Below are positions 10,826-55,968 of a stretch of DNA of 64,000 bases, in pieces (positions within the stretch are counted from its first letter, which is position 1; each line of letters begins with the position of its first letter). Origin of the DNA: Heterodera schachtii. Taxonomy: Eukaryota > Nematoda > Chromadorea > Rhabditida > Heteroderidae. The notes beneath the pieces are model-generated. The model made no database searches, was not told the DNA's origin, and saw nothing but the letters and a program-made list of their open reading frames with translations. The translations under genes and the position numbers were made by a program. Location of the stretch: assembly GCA_023374025.1 (NCBI GenBank), contig SIJG01000099.1, positions 412,906-476,905 of the forward strand. Reading direction: 5' to 3'.

Positions 10826-12488
10826 GAGCCGATAACGGAGTATTTGATTGCTGTTGCTGTTGCTGAAGTTTCATGATTTATTGGGATTTATTGATCAGTT
10901 GGTAATTTGTCATTGTTTCCATATTTTGAGAAAAATGTTAACAATTTATGTGATAAAATTAGATAATTATTCAAAAAATTATTTCTTCCACAAACCCACA
11001 AAAATTCTCATTTATGGGTCAATAAACTTAACTAAATCTAGCTAATTTTATAAATAATCCTGACGGCGCCTAATAGCGCCAATGGAAAATTAATTTTATT
11101 TTAAAAAAAAATTTTTGAAAATTTAAAAAATAATTTTAAAAAAATTTAAAGTTCTTTCATTAGAAGATGGTTGATAAAATTTTTTATTTTAAAGAATTTT
11201 ATTCCAAAAAATTGTTTTTGTCATTCCCGGGACTCCGTCCCAGGCTTTTAGTCACAATAAGCCACGTAATTAAATATTTAATGAAAAAAAGACAAAATCT
11301 ATGACGAATTCGAAAAAAAGTATAAAGGAACGATTTTTTTTATTTCAGTTGAAAATAATTAACTAATTTTTGATTTGCATTTTTTCTTGGAAATGACTCG
11401 GTCCCATTTGAAAACAAGTCCGGTCCCGGTTTTTCACAACGGTCCGTGCAATTCTAGTTTTTAAAAGGAAATCATTAAAAATTCCGACTCAAAAACCCAC
11501 ATATTTACCCAAAAAATGACAAAAAAAGTTGTATAAAACCTTAAAATTAATTAAATCGGACAACTTTCTCACTGTATCCAATTGTAAATAAGTTATATTC
11601 ATTTTTAAATATAAACGTTTTTAATTCCAAGAGGCAAATTTTGCAAAGGATTATCCTCCTCATTTTTATATAATTAGTTACCGATTTAGATTCAAGGTAC
11701 TTACACTGGTGGAAAAAAGTCTTTTACCAAAGCTGCAAAATTTGCTCAGTGGTGATTTTTGTAATTAATAATTGTCAAATATACTAGTTGTAAGCCCTTT
11801 TTGTAGCAATATCTGTGCTCTATTGGTATGCAAAATTTTATCAAATTTTGTTCACAACCATTTGAAATATTGGGACCGGAACAGGAACTGATCACTTTTG
11901 GGACGGAAAAAGTCTTTTACCAGACTTAAAAAATTATTTCAAAATGCTCATAAAAATGCAAATAATTCATGCAGGCTTTTGTTTTGATGCTGAACAAAAA
12001 AGTCTTTTACACCGACTTGATCAGAATACTCCTTCATAGTGATCGGGACACTATGAAATACCCTGAAAATTGGGGAAATTTTAAAAAAAAATTCCTAGGG
12101 GTTTGGGAAATTTTTCTATAAAAATAAGCAATCCCACTGGAAAAAGCACCAAATTCTCTACTGGGATGTTTTTGACCATTGACCAGTAAATACTGTATTG
12201 GTAATGTGTGCTTAGTCCCCTACCACTTTTGAAAAAATAATAAAAATTTAAAAAGTCGTGTAAAAGGTCTTCGCCTTCCTGGGAGTTTTCGAGGTCTCTT
12301 ATCTATAGATTCTAACATAAAAATAAATTTTGAAAATGTGAATTTTCGACTTTTTGTTCGAATTTAGTCGGATTTAACCAAAACTGATGTTATATTCCTT
12401 TTCAGTGCATAAAACTACGCTAGAAGTGTATTTAAAAAAATATTTTCAGTGAGGGTCAAAACGTATATTGTAGAACATAAAAGGTATC
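10826..12488. other. AT-rich intergenic region
   Basis: No coding exon was recognised. The phrase aaaagtcttttac recurs at about 11,715, 11,907 and 11,999, suggesting a degenerate local repeat. The segment at about 12,010-12,050 (cttgatcagaatactccttcat) resembles about 46,020-46,050, so it is part of a dispersed repeat. Confidence 0.5.
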
Positions 12489-12559
12489 TTGCCCGGTGGG
12501 ACTCGAACCCACGACCCCAGCAATCAGTGCCGTGCTCTAACCAACTGAGCTACGGGCGC
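12489..12559 (-). pseudogene. tRNA pseudogene, tRNA-Ile(GAT)-like
   Basis: Read on the minus strand this has a standard D arm (GCTCAGTTGGTTAGAGC) and a perfect T arm (GTGGG-TTCGAGT-CCCAC), so box A and box B are both good. The anticodon region around CTGATTG resembles tRNA-Ile with GAT, but it is two bases shorter than expected and the loop does not close as seven bases. The two outermost acceptor pairs (G1-A72 and C2-A71) are mismatched. I therefore call a pseudogene or tRNA-derived repeat rather than a working tRNA. Confidence 0.6.
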
Positions 12560-18726: not shown

Positions 18727-18732
18727 GCAGCT

Positions 18733-19378
18733 AGTAGTAAGAGACTGTGATTTGTCCGGATTACGGTAGCCCCCCATACCTATGGGATGGCTGCAGGCCA
18801 ACTGAGCGCCAGCCATTTGAGCGCCGCCAAGTGAGCGCGGGCCATTTGAGCGCCAAAATTTTTCAGTACCGAAGCCAAAACCTATTGCGCGACTTTTTTT
18901 TGCTGCGCGACTTTATGCAAATTTTTTATTGATTTTTTTGCTAACCCAAACCTATTGCAGGGGGTGCGCGACTTTTTCTTACTGCGCGACTTTTTTCAAG
19001 TGCGCGACTTTATGCAAATTATTTTATTGATTTTTTCTTGCAAATCCAAACCTATTGCAGTGGTGCGCGACTTTTTCTTACTGCGCGACTTTTTTCAAGT
19101 GCGCGACTTTATGCAAATTATTTTAATTTAATTTTAAATTATTTAAACATCTTAAAGGTCAAAGACGTTGAATTTAAATTCATTTAAAATTCATCAAAAA
19201 TTCCCCGCACCAAGCGGATCCGAACCCCAGAGGGGGCGGCCAGACTGACGCACTAACCACTCGGCCACATTGGCAATGGATAATAAACATTAATTTGCTC
19301 TCATAAAGGGAAAAATTCACGTCACCAGCGGGGGAGGGGGGCGAGAGCGTGCGGCGAGAAGGGGGCGGGGTCAAATAG
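18733..19378 (-). repeat. Left terminal inverted repeat of the Polinton
   Basis: About 646 bp matching, in inverted orientation, the outer part of the right-end unit. From the outer end it contains an inverted-repeat block built on tggcgctcaaatggc, then a minisatellite with recurrent gtcgcgcacttgaaaaaa and agtcgcgcagtaagaaaa phrases, then a tRNA-like sequence and a GC-rich block. It stops at ggtcaaata where the satellite begins. The right-end unit continues about 105 bp further inward, so this terminus was truncated at the satellite junction. Confidence 0.85.
19205..19275 (-). repeat. tRNA-Ser-like sequence in left terminus
   Basis: On the minus strand GCCAATGTGGCCGAGTGGTTA carries a box A-type sequence (TGGCCGAGTGG) and GGTTCGGATCC is a good box B, 45-50 bases downstream. 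The T stem and anticodon stem pair poorly, so this is tRNA-derived rather than a working tRNA. It may provide an RNA polymerase III promoter inside the terminus. Confidence 0.6.
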
Positions 19379-19380
19379 TC

Positions 19381-22300
19381 GCCTGAATACTGTCATATTA
19401 TACGCGTTTGTTTGGCAGTTCTAGCGAGATTCTGAAAATAATTTTTCAAATTATAGATATTAAGCTACAGTTTCCAAATGAATAATTTTTTTGAAATGGC
19501 GATATATGTTTTTCTTAAATCCTTTTTTACTGTTTCTTTTTGAAGCGCAAAATTGTAGAAACATTATAAAATGCATTTTCTAACATAAATTATGTAGACC
19601 AAAAATAAATAAATTACAATCAATAAACAATACGGGTGGGAAAATTTATTATTTTGAAACCCATTTCTTGGGAGTTTTAGCGTGGGTTCTAAAAAATAAA
19701 GGCTGAGTTCCCATACGGGAGGCAAAGATTTAGATAGGAATGAATTTTTTATGTTTTGCGAAGATATCTTTGAGAAATTCATTTTTTGTCCATTAAAATT
19801 TTAATTGCATTTCAAAAATTTTACTCTGAAGAATGTTTTGTTTGTTAATAATATGGAATATTAATTAGTTAATTGAAACGCCTCTTAAATGTTGTTTGTA
19901 CATGTGATTTTCCAATAAAACTGTTCAAATTAGTCTTGGTTCTCTAGAATAATAAGAAACTGCTATTGCGCAATAATCATATAGCCTAATGAGCAGTTAT
20001 TGATATTTGCTCTATGACATTCACCAATGGAATGTTGGAATGTGAAAGGGAATTAAATTGTTAAGTTGCCTGAATACTGTCATATTATACGCGTTTGTTT
20101 GGCAGTTCTAGCGAGATTCTGAAAATAATTTTTCAAATTATAGATATTAAGCTACAGTTTCCAAATGAATAATTTTTTTGAAATGGCGATATATGTTTTT
20201 CTTAAATCCTTTTTTACTGTTTCTTTTTGAAGCGCAAAATTGTAGAAACATTATAAAATGCATTTTCTAACATAAATTATGTAGACCAAAAATAAATAAA
20301 TTACAATCAATAAACAATACGGGTGGGAAAATTTATTATTTTGAAACCCATTTCTTGGGAGTTTTAGCGTGGGTTCTAAAAAATAAAGGCTGAGTTCCCA
20401 TACGGGAGGCAAAGATTTAGATAGGAATGAATTTTTTATGTTTTGCGAAGATATCTTTGAGAAATTCATTTTTTGTCCATTAAAATTTTAATTGCATTTC
20501 AAAAATTTTACTCTGAAGAATGTTTTGTTTGTTAATAATATGGAATATTAATTAGTTAATTGAAACGCCTCTTAAATGTTGTTTGTACATGTGATTTTCC
20601 AATAAAACTGTTCAAATTAGTCTTGGTTCTCTAGAATAATAAGAAACTGCTATTGCGCAATAATCATATAGCCTAATGAGCAGTTATTGATATTTGCTCT
20701 ATGACATTCACCAATGGAATGTTGGAATGTGAAAGGGAATTAAATTGTTAAGTTGCCTGAATACTGTCATATTATACGCGTTTGTTTGGCAGTTCTAGCG
20801 AGATTCTGAAAATAATTTTTCAAATTATAGATATTAAGCTACAGTTTCCAAATGAATAATTTTTTTGAAATGGCGATATATGTTTTTCTTAAATCCTTTT
20901 TTACTGTTTCTTTTTGAAGCGCAAAATTGTAGAAACATTATAAAATGCATTTTCTAACATAAATTATGTAGACCAAAAATAAATAAATTACAATCAATAA
21001 ACAATACGGGTGGGAAAATTTATTATTTTGAAACCCATTTCTTGGGAGTTTTAGCGTGGGTTCTAAAAAATAAAGGCTGAGTTCCCATACGGGAGGCAAA
21101 GATTTAGATAGGAATGAATTTTTTATGTTTTGCGAAGATATCTTTGAGAAATTCATTTTTTGTCCATTAAAATTTTAATTGCATTTCAAAAATTTTACTC
21201 TGAAGAATGTTTTGTTTGTTAATAATATGGAATATTAATTAGTTAATTGAAACGCCTCTTAAATGTTGTTTGTACATGTGATTTTCCAATAAAACTGTTC
21301 AAATTAGTCTTGGTTCTCTAGAATAATAAGAAACTGCTATTGCGCAATAATCATATAGCCTAATGAGCAGTTATTGATATTTGCTCTATGACATTCACCA
21401 ATGGAATGTTGGAATGTGAAAGGGAATTAAATTGTTAAGTCGCCTGAATACTGTCATATTATACGCGTTTCTTTGGCAGTTCTGGCGAGATTCTGAAAAT
21501 AATTTTTCAAATTATAGATATTAAGCTACAGTTTCCAAATGAATATTTTTTTTGAAATGGCGATATATGTTTTTCTTAAATCTTTTTTTACTGTTTCTTT
21601 CTGAAGCGCAAAATTGTAGAAACATTATAAAATGCATTTTCTAACATAAATTATGTAGACCAAAAATAAATAAATTACAATCAATAAACAATACGCGTGG
21701 GAAAATTTATTATTTTGAAACCCATTTCTTGGGAGTTTTAGCGTGGGTTCTAAAAAACAAAGGCTGAATTCCCATACGGGAGGCAAAGATTTAGATAGGA
21801 ATGATTTTTTATGTTTTGCGAAGATATCTTTGATAAATTCATTTTTTGGCCATTAAAATTTAAATTGCATTTCAAAAATTTTACTATGAAGAGTATTTTG
21901 TTTGTTAATAATATGGAATATTAATTAGTTAATTGAAACGCCTCTTAAATGTTGTTTGTACATGTGATTTTCCAATAAAACTGTTCAAATTAGTCTTGGT
22001 TCTCTAGAATAATAAGAAACTGCTATTGCGCAATAATCATATAGCCTAATGAGCAGTTATTGATATTTGCTCTATGACATTCACCAATGGAATGTTGGAA
22101 TGTGAAAGGGAATTAAATTGTTAAGTCGCCTGAATTGTCATATTATACGCGTTTCTTTGGCAGTTCTAGCGAGATTCTGAAAATAATTTTTCAAATTATA
22201 GATATTAAGCTACAGTTTCCAAATGAATAATTTTTTTGAAATGGCGATATATGTTTTTCTTAAATCCTTTTTTACTGTTTCTTTTTGAAGCGCAAAATTG

Positions 22301-25300
22301 TAGAAACATTATAAAATGCATTTTCTAACATAAATTATGTATACCAAAAATAAATAAATTACAATCAATAAACAATACGCGTGGGAAAATTTATTATTTT
22401 GAAACCCATTTCTTGGGAGTTTTAGCGTGGGTTCTAAAAAACAAAGGCTGAATTCCCATACGGGAGGCAAAGATTTAGATAGGAATGATTTTTTATGTTT
22501 TGCGAAGATATCTTTGATAAATTCATTTTTTGGCCATTAAAATTTAAATTGCATTTCAAAAATTTTACTATGAAGAGTATTTTGTTTGTTAATAATATGG
22601 AATATTAATTAGTTAATTGAAACGCCTCTTAAATGTTGTTTGTACATGTGATTTTCCAATAAAACTGTTCAAATTAGTCTTGGTTCTCTAGAATAATAAG
22701 AAACTGCTATTGCGCAATAATCATATAGCCTAATGAGCAGTTATTGATATTTGCTCTATGACATTCACCAATGGAATGTTGGAATGTGAAAGGGAATTAA
22801 ATTGTTAAGTCGCCTGAATACTGTCATATTATACGCGTTTCTTTGGCAGTTCTAGCGAGATTCTGAAAATAATTTTTCAAATTATAGATATTAAGCTACA
22901 GTTTCCAAATGAATAATTTTTTTGAAATGGCGAATATATGTTTTTCTTAAATCCTTTTTTACTGTTTCTTTTTGAAGCGCAAAATTGTAGAAACATTATA
23001 AAATGCATTTTCTAACATAAATTATGTAGACCAAAAATAAATAAATTACAATCAATAAACAATACGGGTGGGAAAATTTATTATTTTGAAACCCATTTCT
23101 TGGGAGTTTTAGCGTGGGTTCTAAAAAATAAAGGCTGAGTTCCCATACGGGAGGCAAAGATTTAGATAGGAATGAATTTTTTATGTTTTGCGAAGATATC
23201 TTTGAGAAATTCATTTTTTGTCCATTAAAATTTTAATTGCATTTCAAAAATTTTACTCTGAAGAATGTTTTGTTTGTTAATAATATGGAATATTAATTAG
23301 TTAATTGAAACGCCTCTTAAATGTTGTTTGTACATGTGATTTTCCAATAAAACTGTTCAAATTAGTCTTGGTTCTCTAGAATAATAAGAAACTGCTATTG
23401 CGCAATAATCATATAGCCTAATGAGCAGTTATTGATATTTGCTCTATGACATTCACCAATGGAATGTTGGAATGTGAAAGGGAATTAAATTGTCAAGTCG
23501 CCTGAATACTGTCATATTATACGCGTTTCTTTGGTAGTTCTAGCGAGATTCTGAAAATAATTTTTCAAATTATAGATATTAAGCTACAGTTTCCAAATGA
23601 ATAATTTTTTTGAAATGGCGATATATGTTTTTCTTAAATCCTTTTTTACTGTTTCTTTTTGAAGCGCAAAATTGTAGAAACATTATAAAATGCATTTTCT
23701 AACATAAATTATGTAGACCAAAAATAAATAAATTACAATCAATAAACAATACGGGTGGGAAAATTTATTATTTTGAAACCCATTTCTTGGGAGTTTTAGC
23801 GTGGGTTCTAAAAAATAAAGGCTGAGTTCCCATACGGGAGGCAAAGATTTAGATAGGAATGAATTTTTTATGTTTTGCGAAGATATCTTTGAGAAATTCA
23901 TTTTTTGTCCATTAAAATTTTAATTGCATTTCAAAAATTTTACTCTGAAGAATGTTTTGTTTGTTAATAATATGGAATATTAATTAGTTAATTGAAACGC
24001 CTCTTAAATGTTGTTTGTACATGTGATTTTCCAATAAAACTGTTCAAATTAGTCTTGGTTCTCTAGAATAATAAGAAACTGCTATTGCGCAATAATCATA
24101 TAGCCTAATGAGCAGTTATTGATATTTGCTCTATGACATTCACCAATGGAATGTTGGAATGTGAAAGGGAATTAAATTGTTAAGTCGCCTGAATACTGTC
24201 ATATTATACGCGTTTCTTTGGCAGTTCTTGCGAGATTCTGAAAATAATTTTTCAAATTATAGATATTAAGCTACAGTTTCCAAATGAATAATTTTTTTGA
24301 AATGGCGATATATGTTTTTCTTAAATCCTTTTTTACTGTTTCTTTTTGAAGCGCAAAATTGTAGAAATATTATAAAATGCATTTTCTAACATAAATTATG
24401 TAGACCAAAAATAAATAAATTACAATCAATAAACAATACGCGTGGGAAAATTTATTATTTTGAAACCCATTTCTTGGGAGTTTTAGCGTGGGTTCTAAAA
24501 AACAAAGGCTGAATTCCCATACGGGAGGCAAAGATTTAGATAGGAATGATTTTTTATGTTTTGCGAAGATATCTTTGATAAATTCATTTTTTGGCCATTA
24601 AAATTTAAATTGCATTTCAAAAATTTTACTATGAAGAGTATTTTGTTTGTTAATAATATGGAATATTAATTAGTTAATTGAAACGCCTCTTAAATGTTGT
24701 TTGTACATGTGATTTTCCAATAAAACTGTTCAAATTAGTCTTGGTTCTCTAGAATAATAAGAAACTGCTATTGCGCAATAATCATATAGCCTAATGAGCA
24801 GTTATTGATATTTGCTCTATGACATTCACCAATGGAATGTTGGAATGTGAAAGGGAATTAAATTGTTAAGTCGCCTGAATACTGTCATATTATACGCGTT
24901 TCTTTGGCAGTTCTAGCGAGATTCTGAAAATAATTTTTCAAATTATAGATATTAAGCTACAGTTTCCAAATGAATAATTTTTTTGAAATGGCGATATATG
25001 TTTTTCTTAAATCCTTTTTTACTGTTTCTTTTTGAAGCGCAAAATTGTAGAAACATTATAAAATGCATTTTCTAACATAAATTATGTAGACCAAAAATAA
25101 ATAAATTACAATCAATAAACAATACGGGTGGGAAAATTTATTATTTTGAAACCCATTTCTTGGGAGTTTTAGCGTGGGTTCTAAAAAATAAAGGCTGAGT
25201 TCCCATACGGGAGGCAAAGATTTAGATAGGAATGAATTTTTTATGTTTTGCGAAGATATCTTTGAGAAATTCATTTTTTGTCCATTAAAATTTTAATTGC

Positions 25301-28300
25301 ATTTCAAAAATTTTACTCTGAAGAATGTTTTGTTTGTTAATAATATGGAATATTAATTAGTTAATTGAAACGCCTCTTAAATGTTGTTTGTACATGTGAT
25401 TTTCCAATAAAACTGTTCAAATTAGTCTTGGTTCTCTAGAATAATAAGAAACTGCTATTGCGCAATAATCATATAGCCTAATGAGCAGTTATTGATATTT
25501 GCTCTATGACATTCACCAATGGAATGTTGGAATGTGAAAGGGAATTAAATTGTTAAGTCGCCTGAATACTGTCATATTATACGCGTTTCTTTGGCAGTTC
25601 TTGCGAGATTCTGAAAATAATTTTTCAAATTATAGATATTAAGCTACAGTTTCCAAATGAATAATTTTTTTGAAATGGCGATATATGTTTTTCTTAAATC
25701 CTTTTTTACTGTTTCTTTTTGAAGCGCAAAATTGTAGAAATATTATAAAATGCATTTTCTAACATAAATTATGTAGACCAAAAATAAATAAATTACAATC
25801 AATAAACAATACGCGTGGGAAAATTTATTATTTTGAAACCCATTTCTTGGGAGTTTTAGCGTGGGTTCTAAAAAACAAAGGCTGAATTCCCATACGGGAG
25901 GCAAAGATTTAGATAGGAATGATTTTTTATGTTTTGCGAAGATATCTTTGATAAATTCATTTTTTGGCCATTAAAATTTAAATTGCATTTCAAAAATTTT
26001 ACTATGAAGAGTATTTTGTTTGTTAATAATATGGAATATTAATTAGTTAATTGAAACGCCTCTTAAATGTTGTTTGTACATGTGATTTTCCAATAAAACT
26101 GTTCAAATTAGTCTTGGTTCTCTAGAATAATAAGAAACTGCTATTGCGCAATAATCATATAGCCTAATGAGCAGTTATTGATATTTGCTCTATGACATTC
26201 ACCAATGGAATGTTGGAATGTGAAAGGGAATTAAATTGTTAAGTCGCCTGAATACTGTCATATTATACGCGTTTCTTTGGCAGTTCTAGCGAGATTCTGA
26301 AAATAATTTTTCAAATTATAGATATTAAGCTACAGTTTCCAAATGAATAATTTTTTTGAAATGGCGATATATGTTTTTCTTAAATCCTTTTTTACTGTTT
26401 CTTTTTGAAGCGCAAAATTGTAGAAACATTATAAAATGCATTTTCTAACATAAATTATGTAGACCAAAAATAAATAAATTACAATCAATAAACAATACGG
26501 GTGGGAAAATTTATTATTTTGAAACCCATTTCTTGGGAGTTTTAGCGTGGGTTCTAAAAAATAAAGGCTGAGTTCCCATACGGGAGTCAAAGATTTAGAT
26601 AGGAATGAATTTTTTATGTTTTGCGAAGATATCTTTGAGAAATTCATTTTTTGTCCATTAAAATTTTAATTGCATTTCAAAAATTTTACTCTGAAGAATG
26701 TTTTGTTTGTTAATAATATGGAATATTAATTAGTTAATTGAAACGCCTCTTAAATGTTGTTTGTACATGTGATTTTCCAATAAAACTGTTCAAATTAGTC
26801 TTGGTTCTCTAGAATAATAAGAAACTGCTATTGCGCAATAATCATATAGCCTAATGAGCAGTTATTGATATTTGCTCTATGACATTCACCAATGGAATGT
26901 TGGAATGTGAAAGGGAATTAAATTGTCAAGTCGCCTGAATACTGTCATATTATACGCGTTTCTTTGGTAGTTCTAGCGAGATTCTGAAAATAATTTTTCA
27001 AATTATAGATATTAAGCTACAGTTTCCAAATGAATAATTTTTTTGAAATGGCGATATATGTTTTTCTTAAATCCTTTTTTACTGTTTCTTTTTGAAGCGC
27101 AAAATTGTAGAAACATTATAAAATGCATTTTCTAACATAAATTATGTAGACCAAAAATAAATAAATTACAATCAATAAACAATACGGGTGGGAAAATTTA
27201 TTATTTTGAAACCCATTTCTTGGGAGTTTTAGCGTGGGTTCTAAAAAATAAAGGCTGAGTTCCCATACGGGAGGCAAAGATTTAGATAGGAATGAATTTT
27301 TTATGTTTTGCGCAGATATCTTTGAGAAATTCATTTTTTGTCCATTAAAATTTTAATTGCATTTCAAAAATTTTACTATGAAGAGTATTTTGTTTGTTAA
27401 TAATATGGAATATTAATTAGTTAATTGAAACGCCTCTTAAATGTTGTTTGTACATGTGATTTTCCAATAAAACTGTTCAAATTAGTCTTGGTTCTCTAGA
27501 ATAATAAGAAACTGCTATTGCGCAATAATCATATAGCCTAATGAGCAGTTAATGATATTTGCTCTATGACATTCACCAATGGAATGTTGGAATGTGAAAG
27601 GGAATTAAATTGTTAAGTCGCCTGAATACTGTCATATTATACGCGTTTCTTTGGCTAGTTCTAGCGAGATTCTGAAAATAATTTTTCAAATTATAGATAT
27701 TAAGCTACAGTTTCCAAATGAATAATTTTTTTGAAATGGCGATATATGTTTTTCTTAAATCCTTTTTTACTGTTTCTTTTTGAAGCGCAAACTTGTAGAA
27801 ACATTATAAAATGCATTTTCTAACATAAATTATGTAGACCAAAAATAAATAAATTACAATCAATAAACAATACGGGTGGGAAAATTTATTATTTTGAAAC
27901 CCATTTCTTGGGAGTTTTAGCGTGGGTTCTAAAAAATAAAGGCTGAGTTCCCATACGGGAGGCAAAGATTTAGATAGGAATGAATTTTTTATGTTTTGCG
28001 AAGATATCTTTGAGAAATTCATTTTTTGTCCATTAAAATTTTAATTGCATTTCAAAAATTTTACTCTGAAGAATGTTTTGTTTGTTAATAATATGGAATA
28101 TTAATTAGTTAATTGAAACGCCTCTTAAATGTTGTTTGTACATGTGATTTTCCAATAAAACTGTTCAAATTAGTCTTGGTTCTCTAGAATAATAAGAAAC
28201 TGCTATTGCGCAATAATCATATAGCCTAATGAGCAGTTATTGATATTTGCTCTATGACATTCACCAATGGAATGTTGGAATGTGAAAGGGAATTAAATTG

Positions 28301-30850
28301 TTAAGTCGCCTGAATACTGTCATATTATACGCGTTTCTTTGGCAGTTCTTGCGAGATTCTGAAAATAATTTTTCAAATTATAGATATTAAGCTACAGTTT
28401 CCAAATGAATAATTTTTTTGAAATGGCGATATATGTTTTTCTTAAATCCTTTTTTACTGTTTCTTTTTGAAGCGCAAAATTGTAGAAATATTATAAAATG
28501 CATTTTCTAACATAAATTATGTAGACCAAAAATAAATAAATTACAATCAATAAACAATACGCGTGGGAAAATTTATTATTTTGAAACCCATTTCTTGGGA
28601 GTTTTAGCGTGGGTTCTAAAAAATAAGGCTGAATTCCCATACGGGAGGCAAAGATTTAGATAGGAATGAATTTTTTATGTTTTGCGAAGATATCTTTGAT
28701 AAATTCATTTTTTGGCCATTAAAATTTAAATTGCATTTCAAAAATTTTACTATGAAGAGTGTTTTGTTTGTTAATAATATGGAATATTAATGAGTTAATT
28801 GAAACGCCTCTTAAATGTTGTTTGTACATGTGATTTCCCAATAAAACTGTTCAAATTAGTCTTGGTTCTCTAGAATAATAAGAAACTGCTATTGCGCAAT
28901 AATCATATAGCCTAATGAGCAGATATTGATATTTGCTCTATGACATTCACCAATGGAATGTTGGAATGTGAAAGGGAATTAAATTGTTAAGTCGCCTGAA
29001 CTACTGTCATATTATACGCGTTTCTTTGGCAGTTCTAGCGAGATTCTGAAAATAATTTTTCAAATTATAGATATTAAGCTACAGTTTCCAAATGAATAAT
29101 TTTTTTGAAATGGCGATATATGTTTTTCTTAAATCCTTTTTTACTGTTTCTTTTTGAAGCGCAAAATTGTAGAAACATTATAAAATGCATTTTCTAACAT
29201 AAATTATGTAGACCAAAAATAAATAAATTACAATCAATAAACAATACGGGTGGGAAAATTTATTATTTTGAAACCCATTTCTTGGGAGTTTTAGCGTGGG
29301 TTCTAAAAAATAAAGGCTGAGTTCCCATACGGGAGGCAAAGATTTAGATAGGAATGAATTTTTTATGTTTTGCGAAGATATCTTTGAGAAATTCATTTTT
29401 TGTCCATTAAAATTTTAATTGCATTTCAAAAATTTTACTCTGAAGAATGTTTTGTTTGTTAATAATATGGAATATTAATTAGTTAATTGAAACGCCTCTT
29501 AAATGTTGTTTGTACATGTGATTTTCCAATAAAACTGTTCAAATTAGTCTTGGTTCTCTAGAATAATAAGAAACTGCTATTGCGCAATAATCATATAGCC
29601 TAATGAGCAGTTATTGATATTTGCTCTATGACATTCACCAATGGAATGTTGGAATGTGAAAGGGAATTAAATTGTTAAGTCGCCTGAATACTGTCATATT
29701 ATACGCGTTTCTTTGGCAGTTCTTGCGAGATTCTGAAAATAATTTTTCAAATTATAGATATTAAGCTACAGTTTCCAAATGAATAATTTTTTTGAAATGG
29801 CGATATATGTTTTTCTTAAATCCTTTTTTACTGTTTCTTTTTGAAGCGCAAAATTGTAGAAATATTATAAAATGCATTTTCTAACATAAATTATGTAGAC
29901 CAAAAATAAATAAATTACAATCAATAAACAATACGCGTGGGAAAATTTATTATTTTGAAACCCATTTCTTGGGAGTTTTAGCGTGGGTTCTAAAAAATAA
30001 GGCTGAATTCCCATACGGGAGGCAAAGATTTAGATAGGAATGAATTTTTTATGTTTTGCGAAGATATCTTTGATAAATTCATTTTTTGGCCATTAAAATT
30101 TAAATTGCATTTCAAAAATTTTACTATGAAGGGTGTTTTGTTTGTTAATAATATGGAATATTAATGAGTTAATTGAAACGCCTCTTAAATGTTGTTTGTA
30201 CATGTGATTTCCCAATAAAACTGTTCAAATTAGTCTTGGTTCTCTAGAATAATAAGAAACTGCTATTGCGCAATAATCATATAGCCTAATGAGCAGATAT
30301 TGATATTTGCTCTATGACATTCACCAATGGAATGTTGGAATGTGAAAGGGAATTAAATTGTTAAGTCGCCTGAACACTGTCATATTATACGCGTTTCTTT
30401 GGCAGTTCTAGCGAGATTCTGAAAATAATTTTTCAAATTATAGATATTAAGCTACAGTTTCCAAATGAATAATTTTTTTGAAATGGCGATATATGTTTTT
30501 CTTAAATCCTTTTTTACTGTTTCTTTTTGAAGAGCAAAATTGTAGAAATATTATAAAATGCATTTTCTAACATAAATTATGTAGACCAAAAATAAATAAA
30601 TTACAATTAATAAACAATACGCGTGGGAAAATTTATTATTTTGAAACCCATTTCTTGGGAGTTTTAGCGTGGGTTCTAAAAAATAAAGGCTGAATTCCCA
30701 TACGGGAGGCAAAGATTTAGATAGGAAGGAATTTTTTATGTTTTGCGAAGATATCTTTGAGAAATTCATTTTTTGGCCAGTAAAATTTAAATTACATTTC
30801 AAAAATTTTACTATGAAGAGTATTTTTTTTGTTAATAATATGGAATATTG
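19381..30850. repeat. Satellite array, 17 units of about 687 bp
   Basis: Units begin (at gcctgaa) at 19381, 20068, 20755, 21442, 22128, 22812, 23500, 24187, 24873, 25560, 26246, 26933, 27620, 28308, 28994, 29682 and 30368; the last is cut at about 30,850. Two subtypes are visible. A has acgggtggg, gagaaattc and ctctgaagaatg. B has acgcgtggg, ctgaattccc, gataaattc and ctatgaagag. A: units 1-3, 6, 7, 9, 11-13 and 15. B: 4, 5, 8, 10, 14 and 16; 12 and 17 are mosaics. The first three units share gcgtttgtttgg against gcgtttctttgg elsewhere. Units contain a 72-residue minus-strand frame only in subtype A; it is broken in B and I regard it as non-coding. Confidence 0.97.
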
Positions 30851-32060
30851 AAGGGGTTCAACTAAATGGAAATTTTAGGTGTCTATGCTCATCGAAAGGA
30901 GGAACGCGATGAACGGAGTGCTTCAGCAATCTGGGTCAACAACACCGATGGAACAGTGCGAGAGGCGGGACACTATGAACGCTCCGAGGGTTTCGGTTTT
31001 TTTTGGGGGGGGGGGGGGGGGGGCTAGCGGAGTGGGCAGGCCCGTATTGAAAAAAATAGACCCGAGGACAAATAAAAGGTCGAATGGCCTTACTGATTTT
31101 TTTAGGATACGGGCCTGTGAGTGGTCAGACGATTTTTGACAATTTACAAAATTGAAAAAGCAATTAAATCTAACCGCTGCCACCACATTCAAATGCAGAT
31201 GCGCTTTGTCCAAGTAGTCGTTGCGCTGTTCGCGCATGATCACTTTGTGAAGAACATCAGGCCACCGCCGCTTTCACTTCTTGACAGGCCGACGGACACG
31301 CCAACCATCGGAACATCATAAATGATGCCGTTGTCCCCGGGGGCCATTGACTATAATTTAGCAAAAATAAACCTATTTTATATTTATTTATTATTGCTTA
31401 CGTACCCCAATGTTAAAAGGCTTGCAAGCCATAATTTGTGTACTGGCAAAACTTTTTGAAATTTTATAGGCCAATAGGCAGACTGTCAACGATTTAAACA
31501 TATCAAGCTTGTTTATTTTTGATGACAAATCAAAATGTTATAATGTTTTGGCAGGCGACAAAGTGGGCGGGCCCCAGGAGAAAGACACGGGAAGACAAGC
31601 GAAAAACCAGGGTCAAGAGGAGGTGGGGGTGGTATTCAAATAAAAATTAATTTTAAATGGAATGGATGCATTTTTTCTGGCGACGGGATTGTTGCCGATT
31701 AATCCGATGCCAGCTTTTCTTTTGACACCGAGACAACCGGGAGTCCCGCCCTGCTCGATTCTCAAGTTCCGAAAATAAATAGAGAGTGCAGAGAAAAAAC
31801 ATCTCTCATGTCGGAAGTCGAGCCGAGTCGATTTTCAAGCAGCAACGCCTTGAGTTCACCCAATCGTTTTGCCAAGACTGTGCAAAGCTGAACTTTGACT
31901 GCACCGATCTGATCATGAAGCACCAAAAGAAAGATGACCCGGCGACTACGACTATGGCAAAGAGTTTCCGCTGGATCAAGGATGGGGCGAAGTGAACAGA
32001 GATGGCACACCACGTTATAAGGACGATCTCATTTTTTGAAAAGTTATACTTGTTGATCAA
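30851..32060. other. Polinton interior between satellite and penton gene
   Basis: No intact gene was recognised. A 19-base G run occupies 31,005-31,023. A plus-strand frame just after the array (GVYAHRKEERDERS ... REAGHYERSEGFG, about 30,873-30,998) runs into that G tract. A minus-strand frame at about 31,350-31,150 (MAPGDNGIIYDVPMVGVSVG, then VIMREQRNDYLDKAHLHLN after a one-base shift) looks like a degraded exon of unknown family. A plus-strand frame at 31,786-31,995 ends shortly before the penton gene and is also unassigned. These may be remnants of lost element genes. Confidence 0.45.
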
Positions 32061-33911
32061 ATGACAAACTCTTTCTTTGTAATTTTGCCGAGCAATACGC
32101 CAGGCTTTGTTGGAAATAAAACGAATAAGTTCAAAGTGCACTTGCCAAAGAAGTTGGTGTTCGATGGGGCCGGGTGGATGGTTGGGCTGTCAGGCATAAT
32201 TTACCCAAACAGGTGGGCGAAATCCAAGGCTATTGGGTCCGATTTTTGAGTTAAGTTGGGCAAAGCTGGGTACATCGGACCGACAATATGTGATTGTTCA
32301 TCTGCACGACGGCAGGAAATACCGTTTCCGTGTGCCAAAGGGAAGCTTTCTCTCGCCACAGCAGCTTGAGAGGGGCATTCATCACGGCATGATTGCCGAG
32401 CTCGAGCGGCTGTTGACCCGAAAAAGGTCAGCACCGGTGCACGCAAGTTTTGGCAACGCCGACGATGATGAGGAGGAGGGCGAGATTCTTGACATCTCGT
32501 TTGTTGAGGAGGAAGAAGAAGATACCGGCGAAGCGCCATTATATCCACTTTCAAATTTGACCAAGCTCTCAGCGGAGCAAGAGACGCCAAGGCATGAAAA
32601 ATGGGCACAGGAAGAGAGAAGGCGAAAGGAAGAGGAGCAGAGAAAACAGAGAGAAGCCGAACGTAAACGGCGAGAGGAAGAGGAGAAGCGACGCAAGGCA
32701 GAAGACGATAGAAGGGAGAAAACAGCGAAGGAAAAGAAGGCAAGGGAGGAAAAATTGGCAAGGGAAAAGAAGGAAGAACAGAGAATAGCAAAGGAAAAGA
32801 AAGGAGAGAAAGAAGCCTTCGGCAAAAAGGCTGAGGATGAGAGAGTAGCAAAGGCGGAAGCGGACAGAGTGGCAAAGGCTGAAGCGGAGAGAGTGGCAAA
32901 AGAAACAAAGGCAGAGGAGGAGAGAGTGGCAAAGGAAAGAGAGGCAGAGGAGGAGAGAGTGGCAAAGGAAAGAGAGGCAGAGGAGGAGAGAGAGGCAAAG
33001 GAAAGAGAGGCCGAGGAGGAGAGAGTGGCAAATGAGACCAAGAAAAAACAAGAAAAGGTGAAGCAATCGGCAGAACTGAAAAGACAGCAATTGGCCAAAG
33101 GAAAGCAAAAAGAGTTGGAGCTGCTCAAAGAGTTCAGACCCTGGCGAGGCGGGTACATGAGACTGGTGCACGGCAAAGACCCAACCCCTGACGTGCATTA
33201 TCTGCACGAAACAGATGACTATCATTTTGTGAATGCTGTACACAAGTACCGTGTCCGCCACTCCGAGCTCCCCTGGGAGGCGCCCGAGTTTAACCCATCC
33301 GCACACATCCAACAGAACATTGCGGAGTTCCGTGAGCTGTTTGAGCAAGAGGTGTACGACGAAAACTACGCGGTGAAAACGCGAGAGGAAAAGGAGGAGC
33401 TGATCGAGCTGGTCAAAGGGTTCCGCTTTTACTTCACCGAGCAAATTGGCCGATTTGAGCTCAAAGTTTTCAACGGGAAAATTTCGCACATTACGCTGAC
33501 TGATCAGCTGGCCTACGTATTGGGCTATGAACAAGAGCAGGAGATCAGAAATGAAGAGCTTGCCAAATATGCGGTCGACTTAGGCGGTGGTGTGAGCCAC
33601 CTGTGCATTTACCTGAACAGTGGCGTCATTGAGAGCATGATTGTCGGCAACACCTTTGCCAATCTGCTCCAAGTGATTGCCGTTGAGGGAAAATCGGGCA
33701 GTGTGGTGGAGAAGGACTTTCAATCCCCTCTGTTTCACAAAATCATAGCAAGGGAGGTGGATGTGCTTGACGTGGAAATTCGCACTCTGACAGGGAGGTT
33801 AGGCTTTTCCGCAGGGCGTTTATTTTTCTAATCACTTATTTAAGGGAGGTGCCATTTGAGTTTGGGCAAGTTGTTTTGACTCTTCAGTTTAAAAAGGTGT
33901 TGACGTTCTGA
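32061..33911 (+). CDS. Polinton penton-like capsid protein, two mini-introns
   Basis: Structural (vertex) protein of Polinton/adintovirus-type elements, inferred from its N-terminal signature and gene order. Exons 32,061-32,212, 32,256-33,797 and 33,845-33,911 join in phase to 586 residues; introns are 43 and 47 bases with GT and AG ends. Residues 1-75 contain the family-typical LPSNTPGF, FDGAGWMVGLSG and IYPNSWAKLG segments, the last restored only by splicing. Residues of about 155-340 are a highly charged Lys/Glu/Arg/Ala coiled coil, including a short repeat built on AEEERVAKERE. Residues of about 345-586 form the C-terminal domain ending VPFEFGQVVLTLQ. The coiled-coil insertion is unusual for a penton. 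The frame is intact, unlike the neighbouring major capsid gene. The stop is 5 bases before the next ATG. Large antisense frames here are shadows of the biased composition. Confidence 0.75.
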
Positions 33912-33916
33912 GAGAG

Positions 33917-34438
33917 ATGGTTCGCGTGATTTTTGACGGCTCAAATTTACGGCTCGAGCAAATTTATCAGCAGAATGGGGGTGGAGGACCGATCAGCGTC
34001 TTTGAGGGGGCCCCAACATTTCAGCGGGGGTACGGTTATTTCTTGGGGGTGCCCCGACAGAAGGGAGCAGGCGTTGGCTCTGTGCTGCGCAATCTGTGGC
34101 GATACCTTCGCCCAATGGTCTCCGCGGCACGACCCTATGCGGCAAATATTGCTGCCGAGATTGGCAAAGAAGGCCTCGAGACGGGTGCACGAGTCCTCAA
34201 CGAGGTGTCCAAGGGCGGCAGCATCAGAGACGCGCTGGTGTCGGAGGGAAAAGAGGGAGCGAAAAAATTGCTGGACAAAGCCTCATCATCACTACAAAAG
34301 GGACGTGGAAGAAAAAAGAGAAGAGGAGGCAGGAAAAAAGCTGAAATCATTTTGAAACCCTCAGACGTTGTTGGACAAACTGTTCCCCAAAAAGCTCTGT
34401 TAAAGAAGAAAAGATTTGACTCACTCGGTTATTATTAA
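33917..34438 (+). CDS. Polinton minor capsid / membrane-active-like protein
   Basis: 173 residues, intact, between penton and major capsid genes with 5- and 4-base gaps. The N-terminus has a Gly-rich segment (QQNGGGGPISVFEG) followed by FQRGYGYFLG and GAGVGSVLRNLWRYLRP, an amphipathic/hydrophobic stretch of the type seen in the small protein that sits at this position in animal Polintons and adintoviruses and is compared with adenovirus pVI/pX. The C-terminal third is very basic (KGRGRKKRRGGRKKAE). Predicted role: internal capsid or DNA-associated, possibly membrane-active protein. Function rests on position and general resemblance. Confidence 0.65.
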   Translation: MVRVIFDGSNLRLEQIYQQNGGGGPISVFEGAPTFQRGYGYFLGVPRQKGAGVGSVLRNLWRYLRPMVSAARPYAANIAAEIGKEGLETGARVLNEVSKGGSIRDALVSEGKEGAKKLLDKASSSLQKGRGRKKRRGGRKKAEIILKPSDVVGQTVPQKALLKKKRFDSLGYY

Positions 34439-34442
34439 CAAA

Positions 34443-35475
34443 ATGCTGTATTACAGGGAGTACCTGACGCTGAATCCGATAAGCTCTAGGCCCTTTCATT
34501 TTAAGGCAAAGGGTTTTCACTTGCAATAGCAGACATAATTTGGTTCAGATCCACCCAATTACCAGCTATGTGGACCTCAGCAAGGTGTTTGTGTGCACCG
34601 AGTTCAAGCTCAAAAAAGTCGCAGATGATGGGGTTGTGGTTGATGTGCCGGCAAATGCAGCGGTCGGCCTTATCCTAATGCCCGGCGCAACATTCATCCG
34701 GAACCTGAAAGTGAACATCAACCAGCGGGAGGTGTAGACTCGAATCAGCTGTACAGCTACAAGGTGTTCTTGGACACCGAGCTCAGCTACCCTGTCGCGG
34801 CAAAGGAGGCATATTTTGGCGTGGCAGGGTATTTCCGTGACAGTGACCCGAGAAAAGTAAACGACAGACGGAAAAAGGCGGTGGAGGAGAGCAAGGGCTT
34901 TCAAGCGATAAGCAAGCTGAGTGCCGACATCTTTAACCAGGGCTTGTACATGATCAGCAATGTGGAGATTGACATTGAGCTCGCCCTGCAGTCGGACGAT
35001 TTTATGATACATCAGGAAGCCGCAAATAGGGACAAGTACACGCTTGAGGTTGTCGACTGCAGACTGATCGTGAAGACTATTGATCTGATGGACGGACTCA
35101 GCCTTGACATTGCCAAGAAGCTGGACATGGAACCCGCCAGATATGGCATTCGGAAAACGCTGATGAAGTCGCTGTTCATCACCGGCGGGCGATACGATTT
35201 TTCGGCCAATCTGTTCACCGAGGAAGTGCCCCGGAGGGTCATCATTGGGCTGGTGCCCAACCAAAATTACATTGGCCACAATCAGAAGAACCCCTTTTAC
35301 TTCAACCACCACAACGTAAGTGCCGCTTTGTCATGTATTTATGACACAAAAACCGTTCAGGTAAGGGACATTGAACTGACCGCCTCTGGCAGGACATACC
35401 CACAGTTCCCGTACAATTTGGGCCAACGCCCACAGCACATATGTGTTCCGTCTACGCGGATTTTAATCCGGGGTG
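34443..35475 (+). pseudogene. Polinton major capsid (hexon-like) pseudogene
   Basis: Resembles the double-jelly-roll major capsid family known in nematode annotations as F54H12.2-like. The start MLYYREYLTLNPISSRPFHF is family-like. The frame is then broken by a stop at about 34,527 and resumes in another frame at VQIHPITSYVDLSKVFV. A second break follows GREV-type sequence at 34,735-34,737 (TAG, consistent with loss of one base), and the frame resumes with SNQLYSYKVFLDTELSYP through GLVPNQNYIGHNQKNPFYFNHHN (split here only for description). A possible 45-base intron lies at 35,316-35,360. After the conserved RTYPQFPYNL segment the match fades in mixed frames and the C-terminus is missing. At least two disruptions make this non-functional. 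Confidence 0.8.
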
Positions 35476-36893
35476 TTGAGTTTGAGCAGCTGCGCGTTCG
35501 ACACTGCTCAGTGACTCACGGTTCCTCCGGGCCAGCCAGTCCCGGTTATTCTCTCGCTGTACCAATGCAGCCCGTAGGCAGGGCACATTAGGGCTAGGAA
35601 CCGCCACCCCCGCTGCTAGGAACAGGCACACCTTCACCCTCAAGTCCAGCGAGTGAAGGGCCCCCATCCACACCAGACCGACTATCTGGCTGGGTCTAAA
35701 CATCGCTGTGACACCCGGCGGGCTATGACGGAAACAGGTTTCGGTCAGTCGCTGCCGCAGCCCTGGATACCAGCGGAATAGACCCCGTGGACAGTGAACG
35801 CCCGTGCCCGCCCCTCTGGGAAGTAACCCAGTACCGGGGCAGGACTCCTCGGTTTAAGGATGGCCGGCCCCCAGGATATTTGAAACGGCTTAACAAATAT
35901 CCTAAAGGGGTTTAGTACCGAGTAAACAAACAAAATCAATGGGGAAAAAGGACAGTACAGAGTACTTGTGATCAATGAAAAAACAAGAGAGAGACTGAAG
36001 AAAAAAGATAAATTTTGGGAATAAAAATTAAACAAATTGTGGAAAATAATAATATTTAAATTTTAAATTTGAAAAAACAGAATGCCAAGAAATGAAATAA
36101 ATTTAAATTTAAAAAACAGAACGCCAAGAATTTAAATAAATTTTATATTTTAAAAACAGAAAGCCAAGAATTTAAATAAATTTTAAATTTGAAAAAAACA
36201 GAAGGCCAAGAATTGAAATAAATTTTTAAATTTAAAAAACAGAACGCCAAGAATTTAAATAAATTTGAAATTTGAAAAAACAGAACGCCAATAATTTAAA
36301 TAAATTTTAAATTTAAAAACACAATGCCAAGGATTGAATAATTATTTAAATTTCAAAAAAACAGAATGCCAAAAATTGGCAAGAAATAATTGAGAAAATG
36401 TGGCACAAAAATGTGCAACAATTGGCAAAAGGAAATGTGAAAAAGGGGGCAAAACAATGCCAAAAAATGGCTGGAAATAATTGAGTAAAATGTGGCACAA
36501 AATGTGCAACAATTAGCAAATGAAAATGTGAAAAAGGTGGCAAAACAATGCCAAAAATTTGGCAATGAATTTTGGCACAAAATGTGCAACAATTGGCAAG
36601 AAATAAACGGGGCAAAAAAAGGGGGAGGGCTAAACAATGGCAAAAAAAATTGCGGCAAAATGGCACAAAAACGGTGCCATAATAATGCCAATCTGGCACA
36701 TAAATAAATAAATGGTAAAATAGGTAAACAAATGCCAAAAAAGAAAAAAATTATGAAATAAATAAATGGTAATGGATTATTGATTTGATTTTGCATTCGT
36801 AAAGTGAATTAAATGAAGTGATAATGGTCAATTGGACAAAAAATCAATTAATAAATTGTTTATTGTCTGGAGGTGTCAAATTACATAATGAGC
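35476..36893. repeat. Polinton interior: minisatellite-rich, no gene
   Basis: At about 36,055-36,375 there are six or more units of roughly 50-60 bp built on aaacagaacgccaagaattt and aaataaattttaaattt. At about 36,365-36,620 there are three longer units built on atgtggcacaaaatgtgcaac and aattggcaa. Frames on the minus strand across these units (130-147 residues, Phe/Cys-rich) are by-products of repeat composition. From 35,476 to 35,900 the sequence is moderately GC-rich and may be eroded capsid or unrelated DNA. Confidence 0.65.
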
Positions 36894-37101
36894 GTGCGGG
36901 AGGGAGGGCGGCACCACAAAGTACGCGACCAATTAAAAAATTGATTTGTTTATTTGGCACCGTTCCAACACCCCCGCCCCCTTCATAATTGATTTGTTTA
37001 TTTGACCCCGCCCCCTTCTCGCCGCACGCTCTCGCCCCCCTCCCCCGCTGGTGACGTCAATTTTTCCCTTTATGAGAGCAAATTAATGTTTATTATCCAT
37101 T

Positions 37102-37171
37102 GCCAATGTGGCCGAGTGGTTAGTGCGTCAGTCTGGCCGCCCCCTCTGGGGTTCGGATCCGCTTGGTGCGG
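37102..37171 (+). repeat. tRNA-Ser-like sequence, right unit 1
   Basis: Identical in sense to the minus-strand copy in the left terminus. Box A-type TGGCCGAGTGG and box B GGTTCGGATCC are both intact; the cloverleaf is degenerate. Confidence 0.6.
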
Positions 37172-37856
37172 GGAATTTTTGATGAATTTTAAATGAATTT
37201 AAATTCAACGTCTTTCTTTGACCTTTAAGATGTTTAAATAATTTAAAATTAAATTAAAATAATTTGCATAAAGTCGCGCACTTGAAAAAAGTCGCGCAGT
37301 AAGAAAAAGTCGCGCACCCCCTGCAATAGGTTTGGGTTAGCAAAAAAAATCAATAAAAAATTTGCATAAAGTCGCGCACTTGAAAAAAGTCGCGCAGTAA
37401 GAAAAAGTCGCGCACCCCCTGCAATAGGTTTGGGTTAGCAAAAAAAATCAATAAAAAATTTGCATAAAGTCGCGCAGCAAAAAAAAAGTCGCGCAATAGG
37501 TTTTGGCTTCGGTACTGAAAAATTTTGGCGCTCAAATGGCCCGCGCTCACTTGGCGGCGCTCAAATGGCTGGCGCTCAGTTGGCCTGCAGCCATCCCATA
37601 GGTATGGGGGGCTACCGTAATCCGGACAAATCACAGTCTCTTACTACTGTGCGGGAGGGAGGGCGGCACCACAAAGTACGCGACCAATTAAAAAATTGAT
37701 TTGTTTATTTGGCACCGTTCCAACACCCCCGCCCCCTTCATAATTGATTTGTTTATTTGACCCCGCCCCCTTCTCGCCGCACGCTCTCGCCCCCCTCCCC
37801 CGCTGGTGACGTCAATTTTTCCCTTTATGAGAGCAAATTAATGTTTATTATCCATT

Positions 37857-37926
37857 GCCAATGTGGCCGAGTGGTTAGTGCGTCAGTCTGGCCGCCCCCT
37901 CTGGGGTTCGGATCCGCTTGGTGCGG
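37857..37926 (+). repeat. tRNA-Ser-like sequence, right unit 2
   Basis: Same tRNA-like sequence as in right unit 1, with intact box A and box B. Confidence 0.6.
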
Positions 37927-38612
37927 GGAATTTTTGATGAATTTTAAATGAATTTAAATTCAACGTCTTTCTTTGACCTTTAAGATGTTTAAATAATTTA
38001 AAATTAAATTAAAATAATTTGCATAAAGTCGCGCACTTGAAAAAAGTCGCGCAGTAAGAAAAAGTCGCGCACCACTGCAATAGGTTTGGATTTGCAAGAA
38101 AAAATCAATAAAATAATTTGCATAAAGTCGCGCACTTGAAAAAAGTCGCGCAGTAAGAAAAAGTCGCGCACCCCCTGCAATAGGTTTGGGTTAGCAAAAA
38201 AAATCAATAAAAAATTTGCATAAAGTCGCGCAGCAAAAAAAAAGTCGCGCAATAGGTTTTGGCTTCGGTACTGAAAAATTTTGGCGCTCAAATGGCCCGC
38301 GCTCACTTGGCGGCGCTCAAATGGCTGGCGCTCAGTTGGCCTGCAGCCATCCCATAGGTATGGGGGGCTACCGTAATCCGGACAAATCACAGTCTCTTAC
38401 TACTGTGCGGGAGGGAGGGCGGCACCACAAAGTACGCGACCAATTAAAAAATTGATTTGTTTATTTGGCACCGTTCCAACACCCCCGCCCCCTTCATAAT
38501 TGATTTGTTTATTTGACCCCGCCCCCTTCTCGCCGCACGCTCTCGCCCCCCTCCCCCGCTGGTGACGTCAATTTTTCCCTTTATGAGAGCAAATTAATGT
38601 TTATTATCCATT

Positions 38613-38682
38613 GCCAATGTGGCCGAGTGGTTAGTGCGTCAGTCTGGCCGCCCCCTCTGGGGTTCGGATCCGCTTGGTGCGG
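38613..38682 (+). repeat. tRNA-Ser-like sequence, right unit 3
   Basis: Same tRNA-like sequence as in units 1 and 2, unchanged despite length variation in the minisatellite next to it. Confidence 0.6.
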
Positions 38683-39146
38683 GGAATTTTTGATGAATTT
38701 TAAATGAATTTAAATTCAACGTCTTTCTTTGACCTTTAATTAAATTAAAATAATTTGCATAAAGTCGCGCACTTGAAAAAAGTCGCGCAGTAAGAAAAAG
38801 TCGCGCACCACTGCAATAGGTTTGGATTTGCAAGAAAAAATCAATAAAATAATTTGCATAAAGTCGCGCACTTGAAAAAAGTCGCGCAGTAAGAAAAAGT
38901 CGCGCACCCCCTGCAATAGGTTTGGGTTAGCAAAAAAAATCAAAAAAAAATTTGCATAAAGTCGCGCAGCAAAAAAAAAGTCGCGCAATAGGTTTTGGCT
39001 TCGGTACTGAAAAATTTTGGCGCTCAAATGGCCCGCGCTCACTTGGCGGCGCTCAAATGGCTGGCGCTCAGTTGGCCTGCAGCCATCCCATAGGTATGGG
39101 GGGCTACCGTAATCCGGACAAATCACAGTCTCTTACTACTGCAGCT

Positions 39147-54949: not shown

Positions 54950-55968
54950 TCGAATTCCATCGGCCGCGACATTCGCCGTTTGTGGAAAACTTTTTAAGAA
55001 AATTTCAAAAAAAAATAATATTTCTATGCTTTTACTTTTGTTTGATTTTTCGGCCATTGAACAGTATGAATAAAAACAAAAATAAATTCACTTTATTAAG
55101 GCAGCAGCGCATTGTTCGCACTAAAATTGATAATAAATGAAAAAATTTAATTTAAATTTTCGAAAAATTTAAAGTATTAAATTTTTGAGAGTAAAAACGA
55201 AAAATCATTTTAATTTATCAAATACCAATATACAAAAATTTAATATTTGATATTTAAAATTGTCAATGAAATAATTTCCAGTAAAATTTATTTTAATAGG
55301 AATTTTGGACACAAAAAAAAGTTGACAATTTTCAAATTTTTCTTTAATTATTCGATCTTAGGAGTACATTTTCATAAAAAGTTGGTCTTTACTGGCGTTT
55401 TTTAGAATTTTCTTATAAAAGCTGAAATATGGACAAAAAATGCAATATGGAAATATGGAAACAAAAATGCCAAATATATAGAAACCCAAAAACCCGGATA
55501 AAGTGTGATAAGCAATTTTGGGAACATTGATTTATTTTTAGCACCTAATTAGGTACCTATTTTACGGGTTTAAGGACCTTAAAATCTGCCCCTAATAATA
55601 TTATTATTATTTAATTTTGTGTGACTGTTCAAAGTTCAATATTAAACATAATTTTAGTTTATGCCTTTCCTTCCAAAATTTGCTTCTCCCCCGCTTTTCC
55701 GCTGCTGCCATTTGACTCATTTCCTCGGCTAATGCAACAAACACCTCAACATTTCGACAAAGCCATTTAATATCATTTTCGCCAATCGATAAAATTTTAA
55801 TAATAAACCTTTAGTGTTGTCGGATGTTACCGAGAATTCAAACTTATGTTTCATTGATCAAAATTATGAAAATTTAATGTCCTTTTTGACTTTCGGGAGT
55901 TTGGGCACTTTCCAAAAACCGATTGAGATGAAAATTTTTACCGCACGTTGCATTTCCTAAAACATTTT
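54950..55968. other. AT-rich intergenic region
   Basis: The first 130 bases may be the upstream part of the GT11 first exon (a frame MAEKSNKSKSIEILFFFEIF precedes it). The rest is AT-rich with no recognised gene and runs up to the 422-bp tandem array. Confidence 0.5.

Follow-up and report, generated by a model that had tools for sequence, protein, structure and literature searches.

A rearranged, non-autonomous Polinton enclosing a satellite array in the genome of Heterodera schachtii

We analysed a 64,000-nucleotide stretch of the genome of the nematode Heterodera schachtii (contig SIJG01000099.1, 562 kb, referred to below as C99; positions 412,906 to 476,905, hereafter the window) and describe in it a 20,408-bp element, at 18733-39140 between two GCAGCT copies, which is a non-autonomous, rearranged derivative of a Polinton (Maverick). 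With a probability of roughly 0.6, we read this element as a defective, likely young Polinton insertion holding about 12.5 kb of foreign DNA, likely captured through rearrangement of a linear copy before insertion and moved by the enzymes of intact relatives. All genome comparisons below refer to an assembly of 178.5 Mb in 356 contigs.

Results

The element is flanked by a perfect 6-bp target-site duplication (GCAGCT at 18727..18732 and 39141..39146, plus strand), with outer borders that read GCAGCT/AGTAGTAAGAG on the left and CTCTTACTACT/GCAGCT on the right. It starts with (AGT)2 and ends with (ACT)2, i.e. AGTAGT...ACTACT, and features inverted terminal repeats of 645 bp, the outer 169 bp of which are identical at both ends; the left copy (18733..19377, plus strand) has the inner edge TCAAATA, as do the A-type ends of relatives. 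The element thus shows both the long inverted repeats with (AGT)2//(ACT)2 termini and the 6-bp duplication of a Polinton, and in the consulted part of PMC8097293 AGTAGT...ACTACT is likewise given as the commonest terminal motif of vertebrate Mavericks, together with 6-bp duplications. An initial annotation of the window had proposed inverted ends, a gcagct direct repeat outside both of them and a Polinton insertion with intact outer boundaries, all of which the termini and the duplication bear out. A genome search with the joined flanks returned, besides the two flanks themselves, 42 repeat matches that were either short or weak (40 of 85 candidates scored), with no paralogous empty target site among them. 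The terminal repeat also has stretches that we take to be A- and B-box-like; its identification as a tRNA gene was rejected, as ARAGORN and Rfam find none there.

Chance resemblance is excluded by the abundance of these termini: the terminal repeat gives at least 56 matched stretches in the genome, 4 of them from the C99 element itself (40 of 137 candidates scored, hence lower bounds, with some repeats counted as two stretches and fragments counted apart), and facing ends 17.6-20.2 kb apart, as the initial annotation had suggested looking for, are found at four other loci (C38, C21, C7 and C98). Three of these four pairs have a perfect 6-bp duplication (TTTTTG, a simple sequence, at C38, CAATAA at C21 and AGTGTA at C7), and C98 has none. 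Among family copies (L013-L036, L073-L076) the initial ~22 bp, bounded by AGTAGTTA and CCGGATTACGG, are highly variable and differ even between both ends of C7 and of C38, the remaining repeat being better conserved. Five family ends (L021, L022, L025, L076 and ~L079:197-228) feature an extra outer cassette of ~31 bp (AGTAGTTAG.GGC..TGATTT..CCGGAAA) ahead of the usual terminus, which looks as if a terminal piece had been duplicated.

The near-complete, 20.1-kb relative on C38, compared as two pieces, provides the reference for the interior. It encodes a polymerase (DNA_pol_B_2, E=1.4e-7), an integrase (rve, E=2.7e-9) and a putative ATPase with a weak Pox_A32 match (E=0.0017, below the cut-off of that family), whereas a maturation protease was not identified in it, and its order is end A, arm A, polymerase, integrase and ATPase region, capsid block, arm B and end B; on C74, arm A, the capsid gene and end B follow one another in the same way. 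The window instead features an end whose inner edge is of type A, foreign DNA of ~12.46 kb, the capsid block, an inverted arm A and three copies of end A. The foreign block thus occupies the stretch that in C38 extends from arm A to the ATPase region, and the B side has given way to the A side in inverted form. The proposal that satellite DNA had taken the place of the replication and integration genes is supported as to position, the foreign DNA lying 5' of the capsid block on the side of the ATPase, integrase and polymerase of C38, and is modified as to content, the block including ~1 kb of a second repeat.

When C38 frames of 90 aa or more were compared with the window (tblastn, E 1e-4), those bearing polymerase, integrase and ATPase matches had no match there, and all window matches fell in the capsid block, arm A and the terminal repeats. 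No polymerase on C99 was among the polymerase matches listed in the genome search, which gave at least 110 matched stretches (91 of 209 candidates scored, fragments counted apart). With no detectable polymerase, integrase or packaging ATPase, the C99 element fails as an autonomous Polinton; it combines family termini and a target duplication with the loss of these enzymes, in a genome that also holds enzyme-bearing relatives. The Polinton load of this genome is high, with at least 107 capsid stretches (102 of 121 candidates scored, fragments counted apart) in several subfamilies (~90%, 45%, 36% and 33% identity), many with open frames; together with the polymerase stretches, this makes possible helper elements plentiful.

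The capsid block (31838..35421, plus strand) is 92-93% identical to that of C38. It comprises a 543-codon open frame with a coiled-coil-like repeat (32200..33831, plus strand), presumably encoding the minor capsid (penton) protein and 96-99% identical in its C-terminal region to the ten best H. trifolii proteins; an open frame for a basic protein of 173 aa (33917..34438, plus strand), 96% identical to the C38 copy; and a broken major capsid protein gene of the putative double jelly-roll type (34516..35421, plus strand), interrupted by one TAG and one frame change and truncated at its 3' end, the match ending near residue 303-306 of 407. The fold assignment draws on a homologue, as the model of a Globodera relative of the C38 major capsid protein (mean pLDDT 80) matches the double jelly-roll capsid proteins of Sputnik, PBCV-1, an iridovirus and mavirus. 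Among named capsid homologues, the best matches come from Heterodera trifolii, H. schachtii and Globodera; Pfam assigned no family to 5 window capsid frames, PHROGs gave nothing better than E=0.044 for 4 frames, and the capsid alignment had no match in the sequences of the PDB. Of the three adjacent capsid-type genes initially annotated, all three frames are present in the capsid region, but the major capsid gene is split and truncated.

The foreign, non-Polinton block (19378..31837, no strand assigned) was delimited by comparison with C38, with other satellite arrays and with other copies of the second repeat, and joints of the resulting chimera read TCAAATA/GTCGCCTGAATACTG and TTTTCAA/GCAGCAACG. 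Its larger part is a satellite array (19378..30849, plus strand) of 16.7 units of 687 bp, of types alpha and beta, the first full unit starting at 19383. With 16 complete units and a 17th cut short at 480 bp, showing 96.7-100% identity to a single reference unit, it takes up 11,467 of 20,408 bp (19383-30849), in agreement with the 17 units and 56% of the element first reported, and foreign DNA altogether amounts to 61%. The left edge of the satellite lies 1 bp from the point where C38 ends A and B diverge, i.e. the native inner boundary of the terminal repeat. On the right, the array ends at 30849, and the adjoining 988 bp (30850..31837, plus strand) belong to another dispersed repeat rather than to the Polinton, which the initial annotation had missed; relatives of this repeat on C3, C108 and C2 extend beyond the point matching 31838, and the C99 copy is therefore a truncated fragment. 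A motif of ~36 bp within it (31774-31809) occurs at at least 32 places in the genome with 89-100% identity (40 of 97 candidates scored).

The 687-bp unit is found elsewhere in the genome, as a search for one 21-base pattern with up to 1 mismatch, which more diverged units escape, located 50 units at four loci: C99 (16), C84 (21), C23 (8) and C90 (5). A DNA search (3 of 5 candidates scored; a lower bound, as neither C84 nor the window array was returned) added a 259-bp match at 80% on C101. No Polinton or terminal-repeat match was found in the flanks read beside the other arrays (~4 kb at C84, 6 kb at C90 and 1.1-1.2 kb at C23). For this reason, and with only short matches to the satellite in the two C38 pieces (best E 0.011), we rejected the satellite as a native Polinton part. 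Monomers were compared from the window (16), C90 (4), C23 (4 of 8) and C84 (1 of 21), and those of C23 and C84 are only ~84-85% identical to the window satellite; these two arrays are therefore probably much older than the C99 insertion, and the earlier suggestion that such an element seeds satellites is not supported, since all three other arrays have read flanks free of Polinton matches and two of them differ by ~15%. In the simplest reading, the foreign block is one contiguous piece of host DNA comprising an array edge and its neighbour. The partial last monomer is the most divergent, with 96.7% identity to the reference unit and at best 97.7% to any of the five window monomers with which it was compared; this hints weakly at an old array edge.

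At the opposite end, the subterminal arm A (35418..36998, minus strand) is inverted relative to the capsid block when compared with C38 and C74, and the terminus repeats, in inverted form, the end type found on the left, i.e. type A on both sides. This right end is present as three tandem copies, each running from GTGCGGGAGG to ACTACT on the minus strand: unit 1 of 755 bp (36894..37648), unit 2 of 756 bp (37649..38404), the terminal repeat closest to the left one, and the outermost unit 3 of 736 bp (38405..39140). The termini first described as complete are so at their outer boundaries, but the rearrangement and triplication on the right had been overlooked. The joint ACTACT/GTGCGGGAGG has 2 exact occurrences in the genome, both in the C99 element, so that the pattern search found no exact right-end joint at any other locus; with 2 mismatches there are 11 further matches, against 28 for a reversed control pattern. 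The exact joint between capsid block and arm likewise has no second genome occurrence, and three matches with 3 mismatches sit at arm A of C24, C27 and C74. As the outer border of the repeated unit coincides exactly with the terminus of the element, the most likely origin of the triplication is a free end, prior to insertion.

Both the satellite and the triplicated end are repeats in the assembled sequence, which could point to a misjoin of either one; such a chimera is nonetheless highly improbable, given that the outer duplication and the near-identical termini tie both ends to one site, that a wrong interior would require compensating misjoins and that the monomers are mostly distinguishable, with 3 identical pairs in the set of 16. 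We also consider it quite improbable that two partial Polintons on either side of a satellite locus moved together as one unit, using their outer ends. The shared end type and the mosaic interior would suit such composite movement, but independent terminal repeats differ by ~7-11% (left end versus C27, 43/641; versus C38 A, 50/632; versus C38 B, 70/632) whereas those of C99 are near-identical, unless homogenised by replication, and none of the three other arrays has a donor-like locus in its read flanks.

The termini also bear on the timing of capture. The left end differs from right unit 2, the nearest terminus, by 1 substitution in 645 sites and 6 gap columns (2 in 646 in the raw count, which includes the first satellite base). 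Counted with that base, it differs from unit 1 at 5 positions and from unit 3 at 11, and we read this last excess as alignment noise because 8 of the 11 differences lie clustered next to a deletion of 20 bp and only 1 substitution separates unit 2 from unit 3. The 16 window monomers fall into types alpha (n=10) and beta (n=6), which are on average 12.7 substitutions per 687 apart (~1.9%), and window monomers differ from those of C90 by 13.3 on average. Had the two types split after insertion, ~12 (12.0) differences between the ends would be expected, with a Poisson probability of 5e-4 for 2 or fewer. With nearest termini differing at 1 of 645 sites and monomer types by ~1.9%, the array was probably captured with its diversity already present, and growth from one monomer after insertion, the alternative first offered, fits poorly. 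A split of alpha and beta older than the separation from C90 is weakly favoured (2 sites versus 1; ultrafast bootstrap 81, with 18 polymorphic columns set aside).

Discussion

These data support a model where the foreign block was likely captured before insertion. A linear replication intermediate would break where one terminal repeat meets the interior, perhaps at the foot of the panhandle that the paired ends form. The broken end would then be joined to a satellite of the chromosome and the repeat next to it, or extended by copying them. The opposite end would give way to this same end in inverted form, and the joining of its terminus to a subterminal site could yield the tandem ends. Polymerase and integrase of relatives would then copy the element and insert it at GCAGCT.

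Alternatively, an ordinary or partly deleted Polinton may have been inserted first, and a later internal chromosomal break repaired with 12.5 kb from a satellite locus, followed by local duplications. We regard this sequence of events as somewhat unlikely: the joint at the terminal-repeat boundary and the terminus-exact triplication point to free linear ends, and the nearest termini are so similar that little time after insertion remains. Several observations nonetheless weigh against capture before insertion. Monomers identical by substitution (W01=W02, W08=W10 and W09=W15) show that part of the array grew recently, in keeping with local growth after a repair. A single satellite-bearing Polinton copy is known, such that movement of the block with the element remains inferred, and insertion of a ready-made array after integration would give a nearly identical picture. 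That the left joint falls within 1 bp of the repeat boundary is a single observation, and the satellite and its neighbouring repeat were not found side by side at another locus in the genome, which counts against capture in one piece. The dating presumes that rates are equal and that the ends have not since been homogenised by conversion; the 5 differences of unit 1 reject a late split less strongly than unit 2 (Poisson probability of 0.02 for 5 or fewer), and the raw count of 11 for unit 3 is compatible with the expected 12.

A second filler case was sought in two facing-end elements, of which one 9-kb piece each was read. The C98 piece features a 555-bp tandem repeat (L079:6325-7953; 2.9 copies, 99%) and the C21 piece a palindromic repeat of ~1.5 kb that reaches the end of the piece (L078:7497-9000). 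The C98 element, however, contains 10 consecutive N and lacks a duplication, and no second clear case emerged. Elsewhere in the window lie a second tandem array (55959-59967; 9.6 copies of a 422-bp unit, 96% matches) and a tRNA-Ser (TGA) gene (12488-12559, minus strand).

The (AGT)2//(ACT)2 ends, perfect 6-bp duplication, 645-bp inverted repeats, length of 20.4 kb and capsid genes related to those of enzyme-bearing copies are all Polinton-like, intact vertebrate elements being given as 12.7-24.6 kb in the consulted part of PMC8097293. The C99 element differs in having no detected polymerase, integrase or ATPase, a broken capsid gene, 61% foreign DNA and one end inverted and triplicated. Helitrons have their own end type and are not known to make a target duplication; the 6-bp duplication and the long inverted repeats led us to reject a satellite-carrying Helitron here. 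The satellite-carrying Helitrons of Crassostrea gigas are comparable as mobile elements with a tandem array that also exists standalone, yet they replicate by rolling circle, and one well-studied type has an array of about six monomers on average, as opposed to ~17 of 687 bp in the single Polinton copy on C99 (PMC8268682, sections consulted). The same sections list an oyster satellite DNA, CgiSat52, with a DNA/Polinton Repbase match, so that an association of Polintons with satellites has in itself a precedent. A Polinton filled with a satellite array, here a 17-unit host array in place of the enzymes, was not found in the parts consulted of the open-licence literature, including PMC11118728, PMC8268682, PMC11071308 and PMC8097293.

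Defective viral genomes with copied-back ends and filler keep their cis-acting ends and lose their replication genes. The C99 element resembles them in its single end type on both sides, kept cis-acting ends, lost replication genes and near full length, and differs as a single chromosomal copy with no evidence of packaging or interference. It is conceivable, although we think it unlikely, that it represents a Polinton genome of this viral type, in which replication genes were lost, one end type came to occupy both sides and was amplified, and 12.5 kb of host satellite refilled the lost length to 20.4 kb (20.1 kb in C38), an outcome that a limit on the length packaged or replicated would favour. 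If so, Polintons could ferry host satellites between chromosomal sites, even between animals.

How satellites arrive at new chromosomal sites is an open question, and one vehicle already known is the Helitron. A virus-like vehicle of larger capacity would be added by a Polinton that combines clean ends and a clean duplication with several kilobases of internal satellite; the C99 element suggests that Polintons could take up stretches of host DNA and transport them elsewhere in the genome. How linear, protein-primed elements may rearrange is moreover recorded in the terminus-exact triplication and in the position of the left joint at the boundary of the repeat, and the abundance of Polintons makes satellite carriage testable in this genome.

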